DNA of 35,014 nucleotides, from assembly GCA_001788215.1 (NCBI GenBank), contig MGAO01000043.1, positions 29,176-64,189 on the forward strand. The letters are read 5' to 3'. The position numbers and the translations under genes are program-made. This DNA comes from Candidatus Roizmanbacteria bacterium RIFCSPLOWO2_01_FULL_40_14 (GTDB lineage Bacteria; Patescibacteriota; Microgenomatia; GCA-001788215; 2-01-FULL-40-14). Positions 3,202 to 33,691 of the stretch are shown here, piece by piece; positions within the stretch are counted from its first letter, which is position 1; every line of letters begins with the position of its first letter. The notes below the pieces were generated by a model. That model had not been told where the DNA came from, ran no database searches, and saw only the letters and a list, made by a program, of their open reading frames with translations.

Positions 3202-3287
3202 GGAGGGTTGGCTGAGCGGTTCAAAGCGGCGGTCTCGAAAACCGTTCTCTCGTAAGAGAGGCACAGGTTCGAATCCTGTACCCTCCG
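3202..3287 (+). tRNA. tRNA-Ser(CGA)
   Basis: Acceptor stem GGAGGGT (3202-3208) pairs with ACCCTCC (3280-3286), with discriminator G at 3287. The anticodon loop CTCGAAA gives anticodon CGA. The long variable arm TTCTCTCGTAAGAGAG and T arm ACAGGTTCGAATCCTGT are standard for serine tRNA. CCA is not encoded, so it must be added by a tRNA nucleotidyltransferase. Confidence 0.95.
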
Positions 3288-3292
3288 CATTT

Positions 3293-28611: not shown

Positions 28612-29667
28612 TTACTGTCCCCTTTTCTTTTTCCAAATCTCTTTATAGAGCTTCTTTGCCGTTTCAGGATTTTCTTTTAAATAGTCCATAGCCGCTTCTC
28701 TTCCTTGTCCAATAACCGTATCTTCATACTTTACAAATGCCCCAGAGCGCGTGAGCACTTCCGTTTCAAGACCCATATCAATCAACTCTCCCTCCCGATT
28801 AATACCAGTCGGCAAAATGTCAAATTCAGCAATTTTAAACGGCGGTGATACTTTGTTTTTAACGATTTTAGCCCGATGACGGCTCCCAATTACATCATCT
28901 CCCCGCTTTAATGTCTTAATTTTTCTGACATCCATGCGAATAGACGCGTAAAATTTCATCGCGAGCCCTCCGGGGGTTGTCTCAGGATTGCCAAACATGA
29001 CACCGATTTTTTGCCGAATTTGATTGGTAAAAATAGCAATGGTTTTTGATTTGGAAATCACACCGGTAAGCTTGCGGAGTGCTTGACTCATCAGCCGCGC
29101 CTGTACGCCCATCTGTGCTTCTCCCATTTCCCCTTCAATTTCAGAGCGCGGGACGAGCGCCGCAACAGAATCGACGACGATAACATCAACGCCTCCTGAA
29201 CGAATAAGCGTTTCGGCAATTTCAAGTGCTTGTTCTCCGGTATCCGGCTGTGAAACGAGAAGATCATCAAGTTTTACGCCGACAATTTCAGCCCAGGTAG
29301 GATCCATTGCATGCTCTGCATCGATAAATGCCGCAACTCCTCCTCTTCTCTGTACTTGGGCAATAATGGAAAGAGCCATGGTGGTTTTACCCGAAGCTTC
29401 AGGACCGAATATTTCAATGATTCGGCCGCGAGGAACGCCGCCGACTCCGAGAGCAAAATCTACTGTATACGATCCGGTTGGCACCACATCTTCTTCAGAT
29501 GGTGGTTTTCTCTCACCAAGCCGCATAATAGCGCCGGTTCCATACTGTTTTTGGATTTGCTCCATCGCCATCTTAACCGCTTGAAGTTTTGGACTATCTT
29601 TTTCATCGGTTTTTTCTGGAGAACTTTCTTTTGATGGTCTTCCGCGTGTCATAAAATCAATCGTCAT
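28612..29667 (-). CDS. recA: Recombinase RecA
   Basis: 351 residues. Walker [20 protein letters not shown], the [10 protein letters not shown] motif, Walker [21 protein letters not shown], loop L1 [20 protein letters not shown], and loop L2 [20 protein letters not shown]. It forms filaments on single-stranded DNA for recombination and SOS control. The first ATG (29667, MTIDFMTRG) overlaps the end of a dispersed repeat; ATG 29652 ([11 protein letters not shown]) is equally possible. The C-terminal acidic tail of E. coli RecA is missing; the protein ends IWKKKRGQ. Confidence 0.97.
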
Positions 29668-29738
29668 TGCGAGGGTGTAAATGACGAAGCAATCCCTTAC
29701 TTTAATAGGATCCTTCGGATTTCATCCTCAGGATGACA
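29663..29738. repeat. Dispersed GTCATTGCGAG...CTCAGGATGAC repeat upstream of recA
   Basis: Ends GTCAT/ATGAC and GAG/CTC are inverted. Inside are TGACGAAGCAATCCC and GGATCCTTCGG...CATCCTCAGG. Its second half is the reverse complement of the block found at 4053-4077. The left end overlaps the first recA start codon. Confidence 0.7.
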
Positions 29739-29803
29739 GTAATACCTGTCAAATATTTTTACCCAATACTAGAGGATTTTGTGATAAAATGCAAGGGGTA
29801 AAT

Positions 29804-29874
29804 CGGGGAATAGTTTAACAGTAGAATGCGCGGCTGGGGGTCGTGCGGCGGCAGTGCAACCCTGCCTTCCCCGA
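29804..29874 (+). tRNA. Atypical tRNA-Pro(GGG)
   Basis: A full cloverleaf in 71 nt: acceptor CGGGGAA/TTCCCCG with discriminator A (the C1-G72, A73 set is typical of bacterial proline tRNA); D stem GTTT/GAAT with loop AACAGTA; anticodon stem CGCGG/TCGTG with loop CTGGGGG (anticodon GGG); variable CGGC; T arm GGCAG-TGCAACC-CTGCC. Two normally invariant bases differ: G18 is A and U55 is G, the pair that forms the tRNA elbow. G19, C56, T54 and A58 are kept. CCA is not encoded. Could be a functional decoding tRNA, a special-purpose tRNA, or a decaying copy. Confidence 0.7.
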
Positions 29875-29930
29875 CAAACTAGAGTAGAAAAGCATATACA
29901 AATGCTGTATGTGTATACTAGGCTACATAT

Positions 29931-30515
29931 ATGAAAGATAGAATGTTTGGAATCATCGGCAAAATAAATGACGCACTGACCGTTTTTGGATATAGCATAT
30001 GGAAACCTGTAATGGAACGTGCAGGTATTGAGACAAAGCTTACCAAATCAACAGAAGAAAGAATAGAATACTTAGCAAACGTTATAAGAACAATTCATGA
30101 AGCAGGAGGGATCAAAGAAATTCGTGCGGCACTGGGTGGAGATGATGGGGATATGGATGAGTTGGCAGAAGCGCTCATCCGAGCAGGCATAGTTCCACCA
30201 CCAGGAGTTCAAATCTTACGAATTAAAATCACGCAGGCACCAATGGGTCCTGCTCCTGAAAATGTGAGAAGTGCATGGGTTGGCACGGAACTGTTAGCCG
30301 TTAACCTTCCACCTTCTATAGGAGAGGAAGATTTTACAACGGGACAAGCAGGACCGCCACGAGAATCTTATGCCGTGTTGACAGAATCCGCAATCGCGGC
30401 ATTACAAGAAAAGTCCCCAGAGGCAGCAGAATGGTTTTATGAAAACGTACCACCTGATTTACCAGTGCTCACTTTTGGCGCAAATGAGGTTGAAATAATT
30501 ACGGAAACAGATTAA
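29931..30515 (+). CDS. Hypothetical protein, unrecognised
   Basis: 194 residues, acidic, soluble, no signal peptide or membrane helix. The N-terminal part is helical (MFGIIGKINDALTVFGYSIW, ERIEYLANVIRTIHEAGGIK); the middle has a Pro-rich turn (AGIVPPPGVQ) and beta-like text. Codon use looks normal, so it is probably real. TATACT at 29914-29919 lies 11 bases before ATG. I do not recognise a family. It may be expressed with the SET-domain gene 18 bases downstream. Confidence 0.6.
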   Translation: MKDRMFGIIGKINDALTVFGYSIWKPVMERAGIETKLTKSTEERIEYLANVIRTIHEAGGIKEIRAALGGDDGDMDELAEALIRAGIVPPPGVQILRIKITQAPMGPAPENVRSAWVGTELLAVNLPPSIGEEDFTTGQAGPPRESYAVLTESAIAALQEKSPEAAEWFYENVPPDLPVLTFGANEVEIITETD

Positions 30516-30533: not shown

Positions 30534-30956
30534 ATGTATCTTCCCATTAAAATCGGCTTATCTCCCACCCTCAAAATCAGAGGGATTATTGCGGTGGAAG
30601 ATATTTGCAAAGATCAAATTATCGAGCGCTGCCCTATACTTCTTATTGAAGTAAAACAGGAATCTCTGATCAAAGACACACCGCTGAACAATTACATATT
30701 TGAGTGGAATAAAGAATATATAGCAATCGTACTGGGGTATGGCAGTTTATACAATCACTCATATAGACCGAATGCACGATATGCTCATAACTATCAGGAT
30801 AAACTCACTATTTTCCGGGCAATCAAAGATATTAAAAAAGGAGAAGAAATTTTTGTAAACTACAATTATGTGCCCACAAGCAAAGCAAAACTCGATCTAG
30901 AGATTTCATCCCTCGATAAAACATATAATACGAAACGCTTGGGAAAAGTGAGATAA
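30534..30956 (+). CDS. SET-domain protein (putative lysine methyltransferase)
   Basis: 140 residues, essentially one SET domain. N-terminal RGIIAVEDICKDQIIE matches the opening 'GrGvfA.e.I..ge.I'. The catalytic core is GYGSLYNHSYRPNARY (NHS..PNA, cofactor binding) and the end is RAIKDIKKGEEIFVNYN (GEE(I/L)..(N/D)Y). Post-SET cysteines are absent, as in most bacterial SET proteins. Such enzymes transfer methyl from S-adenosylmethionine to protein lysines. The target is unknown; ribosomal or secreted proteins are possibilities. SET genes in bacteria are patchily distributed and often transferred. Confidence 0.85.
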   Translation: MYLPIKIGLSPTLKIRGIIAVEDICKDQIIERCPILLIEVKQESLIKDTPLNNYIFEWNKEYIAIVLGYGSLYNHSYRPNARYAHNYQDKLTIFRAIKDIKKGEEIFVNYNYVPTSKAKLDLEISSLDKTYNTKRLGKVR

Positions 30957-30966
30957 TCCGAAAAGA

Positions 30967-33138
30967 TTAGTTTATATACGGCCGTATGAAGAGAAAGTCG
31001 AAACTGTTTATTCTTGCATCACCATTCGTATCGTAAGAAGCAGTATTGGTGTAATAACTTCGTAAGATTGCAGAGAGTTCAGTAGCTGATATCTTCCCGT
31101 CTTTTGGATTGTTGTCTCCGGGAATAGGAATGGTAGTTGGTGTAGGAGTATTGGTAGGAGTAGGGGTATTTGCTGGAATGCAGTCTTGAATAAACGGAGC
31201 AAGTTTAAGGAAATCAAAACCCGCATGCATAAAGGTATCACCACCAACATTCCAGTTGGGATGTATGAAAACACTTTGCGGATAGGTACTAGTATCCTCA
31301 AGCTGAATATTCCCCGCTAAATAGACAGCACCTAGGTTGTTGTTCTGACCGAAACTGACCGGGCCTGCGCTGCTCTGCCAGTTGAAGGTTTTAAGCAAAT
31401 CTGCGTTTATTAGATTTATCTGTTGTCCATACCAGTCAAGTACTAGTTCAGGAAAATAGATTTGGTCGAAACCAGGATCGCCGTTTGATTCAATTCCCCA
31501 GACAAGAGCCGGTTTGTCCAGAAAACGAGTAATATCTATTGAGAACGACGAAACCTGGCCGTTATATGTTTTTAAAATGTTCGTAGATGTAGTCCAATTA
31601 AAGTTGTCACTGCGGGAACTAGGCGTTACAGTACTATAATCATCGTTGTTATACATGAATGTTAAGCGCGCCCCATTCGTTTGTGTTGCTCCCTTGGCAA
31701 ATCCGAATTTCCCTCGCAGCAGTACTTTACCCCCAGTAAATTCTTTATGTCTGCAATACCGAAGCAAAGGCTCGTCCAGGGTATTTAGAGGCGGGTACGT
31801 AAACTGCGGGTTGCTTATATTTTTTATCTCCGAAATCCGCCTGAGTGCCGCAAAGTGATCGCCGTACTCAGAATAATTGGCAAAATTAAAACCTGGTTCT
31901 ATCTGATGTTGTTCATTCCAGTCATTCCAAGACTCAAGAAATACATCTTTATCGTATTGTTTTGCCATATCAAGAGACACTTTTAAAAATCCCTCTTTTT
32001 CAGGAAACATCCCGTTTCCGGTCCGTGTTATGACCGTACGAGGTATTGAAAGACCGGATCCTCTATCGCTCGTAGTCGGAAACAGTGCCCGCTCGTCAAA
32101 AGCCGGATACACATGGAAAGCCATCTTCCCAGCAGCATCGCCAACTGCAAAATTTATACTGTTTCGATAATTAGCAAGATACGTATCGCGGTTGGTTGAT
32201 GAGTTTAACAGTGGGGTAATTTGCTTGTCAACACCGAAAGTATTAAAAAATACACCAATGTTTTCTGCAGTTGCAATTCTATATATCTCCGGAATAGATG
32301 CGAAACTTTCTCCCCGATAATCCTTGGTTGACCCGGTCATGACCAGGTAAAAATCTCCTGCCTGCGCTTTTACTTCACTGATCCACTTTTTCATATCGGC
32401 AACATTTCCCCAGTTATATATTGTCTGGTTTGAAGGTGTAGGACAATCCGATTGAGGATATAGAGAATCTCCATGTTTATATAGTGCACTCCACGTTTGT
32501 CCAGTTGGATAATTTGCAATCCAGAAAACAGGCTTTCCGTCAATCCGTAAATAGGCCGGATTACTTGCAAACGACTGGAGGTGCGAAATAATTACTTGTT
32601 TGTTCCCCTCATAAAAAAGGCGGCATCCGTTACTTTGCATCGGGAGACCGCGCGCATTTGCTAATCCGTGTTTGGGATGATCGATCCCTACTCCTCCATA
32701 CGCCTCTATTCCAAGTTTCATCCCCACTTGGTTGGCAATAGTTAGATGATTGGTAAACGTCTGGTTCCACGCCCCGTCATAAACGGATGCAAACATCCCA
32801 TCAATTCCCGCGGCTTTGGCAAGTTCAAAATGATACTTAATAACATCATTTTGTGTAAACGAGCTGTACGGACCGGTCAACGGAAGTCCCAAGCGGGAAG
32901 CGGTTTCACGCCTCCATGGACTTAAAAAAGTAGTCCCGTCGCTTCCACCTGTAACACTCCATGATTTTTTGCTCCAGTTCTGCCAGGTTTGATGCCGCCA
33001 GTCAGGACTTACGTCATACGTTGAGTACCATAGATGGTATTGCACATAGACGTTCGTTACGGCAAAAGCTGACCGGGCACTAAATAGAAATAACAGTAAT
33101 ACAAAAATTGATTTGAAAAGACAGGAAGTTCTTTTCAT
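30967..33138 (-). CDS. Secreted GH99-like glycoside hydrolase with C-terminal dockerin-like module
   Basis: 723 residues from ATG 33138, which begins a clear signal peptide (MKRTSCLFKSIFVLLLFLFS, cut after SAFA). The TIM-barrel part (~25-470) resembles GH99/WbsX-type proteins: YVQYHLWYSTYD at its start, AAGIDGMFASVYDG, and FLESWNDWNEQHQIEPG, the equivalent of the family's WNEWHEGTQIEP. A beta-rich domain follows (~480-650), then a PTPTNTPTPT linker (~652-673) and a ~50-residue end with two EF-hand-like loops; the second, DTNGDARINSFD, is a perfect calcium loop. GH99 enzymes cut alpha-mannans; WbsX-like proteins occur in surface-glycan clusters. A cohesin partner is not in this window. Confidence 0.8.
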   Translation of the reverse strand: MKRTSCLFKSIFVLLLFLFSARSAFAVTNVYVQYHLWYSTYDVSPDWRHQTWQNWSKKSWSVTGGSDGTTFLSPWRRETASRLGLPLTGPYSSFTQNDVIKYHFELAKAAGIDGMFASVYDGAWNQTFTNHLTIANQVGMKLGIEAYGGVGIDHPKHGLANARGLPMQSNGCRLFYEGNKQVIISHLQSFASNPAYLRIDGKPVFWIANYPTGQTWSALYKHGDSLYPQSDCPTPSNQTIYNWGNVADMKKWISEVKAQAGDFYLVMTGSTKDYRGESFASIPEIYRIATAENIGVFFNTFGVDKQITPLLNSSTNRDTYLANYRNSINFAVGDAAGKMAFHVYPAFDERALFPTTSDRGSGLSIPRTVITRTGNGMFPEKEGFLKVSLDMAKQYDKDVFLESWNDWNEQHQIEPGFNFANYSEYGDHFAALRRISEIKNISNPQFTYPPLNTLDEPLLRYCRHKEFTGGKVLLRGKFGFAKGATQTNGARLTFMYNNDDYSTVTPSSRSDNFNWTTSTNILKTYNGQVSSFSIDITRFLDKPALVWGIESNGDPGFDQIYFPELVLDWYGQQINLINADLLKTFNWQSSAGPVSFGQNNNLGAVYLAGNIQLEDTSTYPQSVFIHPNWNVGGDTFMHAGFDFLKLAPFIQDCIPANTPTPTNTPTPTTIPIPGDNNPKDGKISATELSAILRSYYTNTASYDTNGDARINSFDFLFIRPYIN

Positions 33139-33148
33139 AACTTCTATT

Positions 33149-33154
33149 ATTATA
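33149..33154 (-). promoter_or_regulatory. -10 box 10 bases before the GH99-like ATG
   Basis: TATAAT (minus strand, 33154-33149), then 10 bases to ATG 33138. No -35 is seen; the gene may also be reached from the upstream lytic-transglycosylase-like gene. Confidence 0.4.
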
Positions 33155-33157
33155 TCT

Positions 33158-33691
33158 TTATCTCCCACATGCCGGCCAGGCGCCTGCCCCGCCACGAGAG
33201 ATTTTAAAAGCTGCAGTTTTAATAGATTCTTCTGGATTAAACCGAAGATCCAGATTCGGATCTGCTCCCATCGCATTTCTTGTACTGATCCAGGTGCCCG
33301 CAGCAAACTGATACATGCCACCGTAATTGTTTTTTGCATTATATGACGTTGCATTAAATCCGGACTCGCATTGCGCTATGTTGTGAAGCAGACTCCGGTC
33401 AATATGATATTCGTCACTATAACGGGTAAACCAGCTATCCAGATCTGTTCCAGTATATGAATATTGTGTAGGAGTTGGCGGCATAGGTGTTGGTGTATTG
33501 GTTGGAGTAGGTGTATTCGTCGGGGTGGGAGTATTTGTCGGCGCCGGGGTATTGGTGGGCGTGGGGGTTATATCATAGCTCTCAATATGGGCACTTAATA
33601 CGGGAGATTCCTCATGATGACGTGACCTTGTAGAAATAATCGTGCTAAAAAGCACGATCCCGGCAGCCGCAATGATACCTATTGCTGGCAT
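33158..33691 (-). CDS. Secreted lytic-transglycosylase/Rpf-like cell-wall enzyme
   Basis: 177 residues from ATG 33691 (MPAIGIIAAAGIVLFSTIIS); a TTG at 33712 adds seven residues but overlaps the -10 box. N-terminal anchor or signal (~1-20), then a Thr/Pro repeat linker (about five copies of PTNTPT, encoded by 33480-33567), and a C-terminal domain: LLHNIAQCESGFNATSYNAK, NNYGGMYQFAAGTWISTRNA, RFNPEESIKTAAFKISRGG and AWPACGR. The Glu in CESGFN is the likely catalytic acid. These enzymes cleave peptidoglycan. It lies 20 bases upstream of the GH99-like gene and shares its linker type. Confidence 0.85.
   Translation of the reverse strand: MPAIGIIAAAGIVLFSTIISTRSRHHEESPVLSAHIESYDITPTPTNTPAPTNTPTPTNTPTPTNTPTPMPPTPTQYSYTGTDLDSWFTRYSDEYHIDRSLLHNIAQCESGFNATSYNAKNNYGGMYQFAAGTWISTRNAMGADPNLDLRFNPEESIKTAAFKISRGGAGAWPACGR
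33480..33567 (-). repeat. Tandem Pro/Thr-coding repeat
   Basis: Tandem ~18-bp units encode PTNTPT repeats in the lytic-transglycosylase-like linker. A shorter version encodes the linker of the GH99-like protein near 31131-31180. Such tracts can change length by slippage. Confidence 0.7.

Follow-up and report, generated by a model that had tools for sequence, protein, structure and literature searches.

A proline tRNA gene with A18 and G55 in place of G18 and U55: a probable alternative elbow pair in Roizmanbacteria and beyond

Introduction

What becomes of the tRNA elbow when the two bases that normally meet there are both replaced? G18 and U55 are taught as invariant bases of tRNA. In terms of base chemistry, G18 carries hydrogen-bond donors at N1-H and N2-H, and U55 or C55 carries acceptors; A18 has an acceptor at N1 and no donor there, and G55 has donors at N1-H and N2-H. 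A section of one review describes the normal elbow as residue 18 inserted between residues 57 and 58 and joined to pseudouridine-55 by a single-hydrogen-bond pair (PMC4810234).

The question is raised by a tRNA-Pro(GGG) gene of Candidatus Roizmanbacteria bacterium RIFCSPLOWO2_01_FULL_40_14, which lies in a stretch of 35,014 nucleotides (contig MGAO01000043.1, positions 29,176 to 64,189 of the forward strand; hereafter the window). A preliminary description, made from the sequence, recognized a complete cloverleaf with proline identity marks in which G18 and U55 are both changed, took the double change for compensation rather than decay, and hinted at a role outside the ribosome like that of certain Staphylococcus glycine tRNAs. 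Here, the gene is examined in its genome, against its nearest relative, and in wider surveys of bacteria and archaea.

Results

The gene is called by ARAGORN as tRNA-Pro(ggg) at 29804-29875 (+), and the Rfam tRNA model RF00005 matches it end to end (Table 1) with 44.5 bits, above the gathering score of 29, in the covariance-model scoring suggested in the preliminary description. All 21 stem pairs form (7/7 acceptor, 4/4 D, 5/5 anticodon and 5/5 T), four of them G-U, which bears out the complete cloverleaf. Numbering of the D-arm gives A14 A15 C16 A18 G19 U20 A21 and that of the T-arm G53 U54 G55 C56 A57 A58 C59 C60. Both near-invariant bases are thus replaced as described, and the usual G18-U55 elbow contact is absent, with A18/G55 there instead. 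G19-C56, U54-A58, U8-A14, C1-G72 and A73 are normal, and the variable loop has four bases; besides A18/G55, the tRNA has a non-standard Levitt pair, A15-C48. C1-G72, A73, G35 and G36 serve as identity marks of bacterial proline tRNAs, and all of them are present, together with G34, in agreement with the earlier reading. Most tRNA genes of the source genome likewise lack an encoded CCA. Thermodynamic folding of the single sequence gave z = -1.14 with the D-stem not predicted, and a search for a promoter-like site upstream of the gene found none.

Table 1. Coordinates of the tRNA-Pro(GGG) gene and its diagnostic positions within the window.
Feature	Position	Strand	Evidence
tRNA-Pro(GGG) gene, positions 1-73, CCA not encoded	29804..29874	+	ARAGORN, Rfam RF00005, 21/21 stem pairs
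A18, replaces near-invariant G18; D-loop AACAGUA, 7 nt	29820	+	Direct reading and numbering; covaries with 55 in relatives
G55, replaces near-invariant U55; T-loop UGCAACC	29856	+	Direct reading and numbering; covaries with 18 in relatives
Anticodon GGG (reads CCC/CCU), then G37	29836..29838	+	ARAGORN, position numbering

On one side of the gene lies recA (28612-29667, minus strand) and on the other, at 29931, an ORF of unknown family. It stands alone, as stated previously; the other tRNA genes of the window number three and not two, since ARAGORN calls, besides the pair at 4.1-4.3 kb, a tRNA-Ser(CGA) at 3202-3288. Other features of the neighborhood are a single copy, within the window, of CGTCATTGCGAG...GACGAAGCAATCCC (29660-29740), which we take to resemble a dispersed repeat element of other bacterial genomes; a small SET-domain protein (30534-30956, +; E = 9.5e-15), unusual for a reduced bacterial genome; and a large WbsX-like protein (30967-33354, -) with a weak C-terminal dockerin-like match, both matches lying below the Pfam cut-offs.

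The source assembly (853 kb in 48 contigs, rated 83% complete) has 24 intact, full-length tRNAs, of which two are for proline, one with anticodon CGG and normal G18/U55 and the present one with GGG and A18/G55. The latter has the lowest Rfam score of the 24. A loose pattern combining the GGG anticodon arm and the T-loop returned from this 83%-complete assembly only this gene and one site that is not tRNA-like, and the genome-wide listing of proline tRNAs proposed in the preliminary description thus reveals no second Pro(GGG). Pro(UGG) was not found either; many other expected tRNAs are missing from the same assembly, so its absence tells little. In window ORFs 200 codons or more in length, 133 of the 282 proline codons are CCC or CCU, so there would be work for a GGG reader.

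The nearest relative, tRNA-Pro(GGG) L027 in genome G001 of the same family, resides on a fragment carrying genes other than those that flank the gene studied here. The two tRNAs share the cloverleaf, the anticodon, C1-G72, A73, the 7-nt D-loop and the 4-nt variable loop, and position 18 is the sole difference between positions 8 and 46. L027 has G18/U55 where the window gene has A18/G55, and the stems differ by compensated changes at 7-66 (A-U vs. G-C), 49-65 (G-C vs. C-G) and 51-63 (C-G vs. G-C). Compensated stems and near-identity to L027 indicate that the gene exchanged its elbow pair while under selection and is not a decaying copy. Judged from these two members of the family, the A18/G55 state is not conserved within it, and the pair toggles. 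The preliminary description had proposed aligning orthologues to see whether A18/G55 is conserved and had named orthologues with G18/U55 as evidence against its reading. Literally, L027 is such a case; it indicates, however, that the pair toggles and not that the gene is dead.

A decaying pseudogene, in which two chance elbow substitutions struck an unneeded gene, would fit the covariance score of the gene, which no intact tRNA of the genome undercuts, and the normal G18/U55 of the nearest relative. It is nevertheless very improbable in view of the fully paired stems, the compensated nature of the differences from G001, the lack of another Pro(GGG) in the 83%-complete assembly and the joint recurrence of the same two substitutions in different families and amino-acid classes, where single mutants are nearly absent. 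Assembly error was rejected along with the pseudogene because of the compensated stems and the occurrence of the same pair in independent genomes.

This recurrence was followed with patterns in which other conserved tRNA positions were fixed and position 18 was left free (A or G), and matches were filtered for fold (at least 3/4 D pairs and 5/5 anticodon pairs). When G55 was fixed, 33 matches in 137 genomes of the class fold as tRNA, and all 33 have A18 and none G18. Fixing both U55 and A18 in the same 137 genomes left one folding match, a doubtful one, as this Ser(GGA)-like gene lacks the long variable arm that a serine tRNA should have. For C55, there were at least 92 matches, and 79 of the 92 listed fold strictly, all with G18. 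At the level of the phylum (240 genomes, 20 of them common to the class set), every one of the 29 strict matches with G55 has A18. A single G18/G55 tRNA-Met, in genome G481, misses the strict fold filter by one pair, yet is tRNA-like.

A survey of tRNA-Pro(GGG) itself in 374 genomes, admitting A or G at position 18 and U or G at position 55, yielded 123 genes, 114 with G18/U55, nine with A18/G55 and none mixed (Fisher test, p = 7.6e-14, or 2.4e-12 on unique sequences, both values ignoring relatedness). The A18/G55 form occurs in five families, and normal sisters are found alongside it in four of these (f1, f2, f12, f17). Of 409 tRNAs taken from all loci, a set in which the variant is over-represented, 276 are G18/U55, 17 are G18/C55, 85 are A18/G55 (one of them an Ala gene that the script misparsed) and one is A18/U55. 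These comparisons strongly support the proposition that positions 18 and 55 change as a pair and only very rarely one at a time, and the near-absolute covariation favors compensation over decay, as had been surmised. As a separate observation, tRNAs with G18/C55 (T-loop UCCRA) are common in the class, where they include Thr, Gly, Lys, Ala, Gln and Arg tRNAs (L202, L168, L187, L193 (G192), among others).

The swap extends well beyond proline. It is seen also in Gly, Cys, Val, Ala, Arg, Tyr, Ile, Met, Thr and Gln tRNAs, and is found in at least eleven amino-acid classes, with other phyla and DPANN archaea included. Named genomes with similar tRNAs belong to Levybacteria, Daviesbacteria, Roizmanbacteria and other Patescibacteria. 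When 84,980 genomes were scanned with a proline-like D-arm pattern, 70 loci were obtained. Among them are tRNAs for Gly(GCC), Pro, Val and Ile in many Patescibacteria, for Ala on archaea-labelled contigs (one from Parvarchaeota), for Met in WOR-3, for Pro in a Poribacterium and for Gly in a single Streptomyces. About 17 of the 70 correspond to a Gly(UCC)-like gene of Streptomyces whose T-stem is broken; these were left out of the A18/G55 counts. The scan pattern is narrow, and the true spread of A18/G55 is therefore larger than 70 loci suggest. Two apparent restrictions were discarded. The first search of the class seemed to confine the swap to proline tRNAs only because its pattern demanded G36 G37, and with freer patterns Gly, Val, Ala, Cys and other tRNAs appeared; a limitation to 7-nt D-loops is contradicted by 8-nt examples of A18/G55 (Thr; Pro(GGG) L053).

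Two further groups of genes came to light in these searches. Several of the loci come from arrays in which highly divergent tRNA genes are densely packed, with as many as approximately 27 in 8 kb. The arrays, several with A18/G55, occur in Myxococcales, cyanobacterial, alphaproteobacterial and verrucomicrobial bins (L047, L053, L080, L087, L096, L067, L107), and look like the tRNA arrays of phages or mobile elements. The Streptomyces Gly(UCC)-like gene is near-identical at 17 loci (L050, L057, L068, L072, L081, L088, L092, L093, L095, L097-L099, L105, L108-L111); its acceptor, D and anticodon stems are good, whereas its T-stem is shifted or broken, and it has no ARAGORN call. Streptomyces peptidoglycan has a glycine branch. 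The conservation of the gene means that it is possibly a dedicated non-ribosomal glycine donor.

Two single-contig relatives appear to depend on A18/G55 tRNAs, with the reservation that counts of sole isoacceptors rest on tRNA searches, which can miss genes. In G192, a single contig of 841,695 bp with 44 tRNAs, the only Pro(GGG) and the only Gly(CCC) are A18/G55. In G105, a single contig of 1,084,101 bp with 46 tRNAs, this holds for the sole Cys, Tyr, Gly(GCC), Gly(UCC) and Arg(CCU) tRNAs. As the only Cys and Tyr tRNAs of G105 are of this kind, the cell must translate with them. The recurrence of A18/G55 as a covarying pair in sole isoacceptors implies that G18-U55 is not defining for tRNA function in these lineages. 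The Rfam search of G192 omits its only Pro(GGG), which is found by both the pattern search and ARAGORN (G192:C1:431690-431762); tRNA finders under-score genes with the alternative elbow, and such tRNAs may be under-annotated.

Discussion

The gene in the window very probably encodes a functional elongator tRNA-Pro(GGG) in which the contact between the D-loop and the T-loop is made by an alternative tertiary pair, A18-G55. Taken singly, it is most likely a rare but ordinary translating tRNA, and the interest lies in the rule behind the pair. The tRNA would be charged with proline and read CCC and CCU. Its purine 18 would still insert between residues 57 and 58 and still pair with residue 55, the direction of the hydrogen bonding being reversed so that N1 and N2 of G55 donate and N1 of A18 accepts. 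In an A18-U55 combination, two acceptors would face each other, and in G18-G55, two donors. Such a reversal of polarity would account for the association of A18 with G55 and of G18 with U55 or C55, and for the near absence of mixed forms. A further consequence of A18/G55 is that the substrate bases for pseudouridine-55 and Gm18 are missing from the tRNA.

One could also imagine that the tRNA functions without contact between A18 and G55, that G19-C56 alone holds the elbow, and that the two bases co-occur owing to shared ancestry or the lateral spread of a few genes. The fact that many of the variants belong to one type, tRNA-Gly(GCC), is in keeping with such a scenario, but we give it a very slim chance, as the variants arise in differing isoacceptor and lineage backgrounds, with normal sisters in families f1, f2, f12 and f17, and as free positions should produce common single mutants, which is not what is seen.

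A dedicated aminoacyl donor that escapes both EF-Tu and the ribosome is known from the non-ribosomal tRNA-Gly of S. aureus (PMC4052509; PMC9976931), and a changed elbow is what led to this comparison. In the non-proteinogenic tRNA-Gly of S. aureus, G18G19 is replaced by UU or CU, and the pairs A49-U65 and A51-U63 make for weak binding of EF-Tu (PMC4052509). Both this tRNA and the one studied here depart from G18 in the D-loop. Here, however, G19 is kept together with its partner C56, the change at 18 is matched at 55, and the T-stem has G49-C65 and C51-G63 in place of the weak A-U pairs; on these grounds, a peptidoglycan-type identity was rejected. In relatives, moreover, Cys, Tyr and Pro(GGG) tRNAs are each represented by a single gene of the A18/G55 type, and the swap spans at least eleven amino-acid classes. 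A non-ribosomal role for tRNA-Pro(GGG) is accordingly highly unlikely. The interpretation in the preliminary description is, as far as sequence comparison can tell, partly supported: compensation yes, the non-ribosomal hint no.

Returning to A18-G55 as an alternative elbow pair, we suggest, only tentatively, a broader reading in which it is an undescribed and evolutionarily reversible second solution to the elbow that has arisen repeatedly, both in bacteria and in DPANN archaea, follows a donor/acceptor rule (A18 with G55; G18 with U55 or C55) and defines a set of essential translating tRNAs without pseudouridine-55 and Gm18. If so, the A18-G55 class may alter translocation, turnover or recognition by elbow-binding enzymes. 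The recurrent paired swap, with single mutants nearly absent, amounts to a natural experiment on the requirements of the elbow contact, and A18-G55 gives a direct prediction of hydrogen-bond polarity. Essential tRNAs that lack the targets of pseudouridine-55 and Gm18 formation would be useful for probing the role of these modifications and of the 18-55 pair in translocation.

A literature search, which did not reach older subscription papers, found no description of A18-G55. Suppressor-tRNA work of the Steinberg group from 2003-2004, including selections by Doyon, Steinberg and colleagues in 2004 ("specific and non-specific purine trap"), reportedly treats alternative combinations at 18/55. 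The passages on G18/U55 in two reviews of the elbow and the T-loop mention no natural A18-G55 pair (PMC4810234; PMC7912444).

The pair can finally be placed beside the T-loop motif. G is frequent at the second position of T-loops in other RNAs. The tRNA-Pro(GGG) resembles the T-loop motif with an intercalated purine, as outlined in part of one review (PMC4810234), in that U54-A58 and G19-C56 are kept and purine 18 is available for the slot between residues 57 and 58. It differs in that the second base of the T-loop is G and not U or pseudouridine, and in that the purine to be inserted is A and not G.
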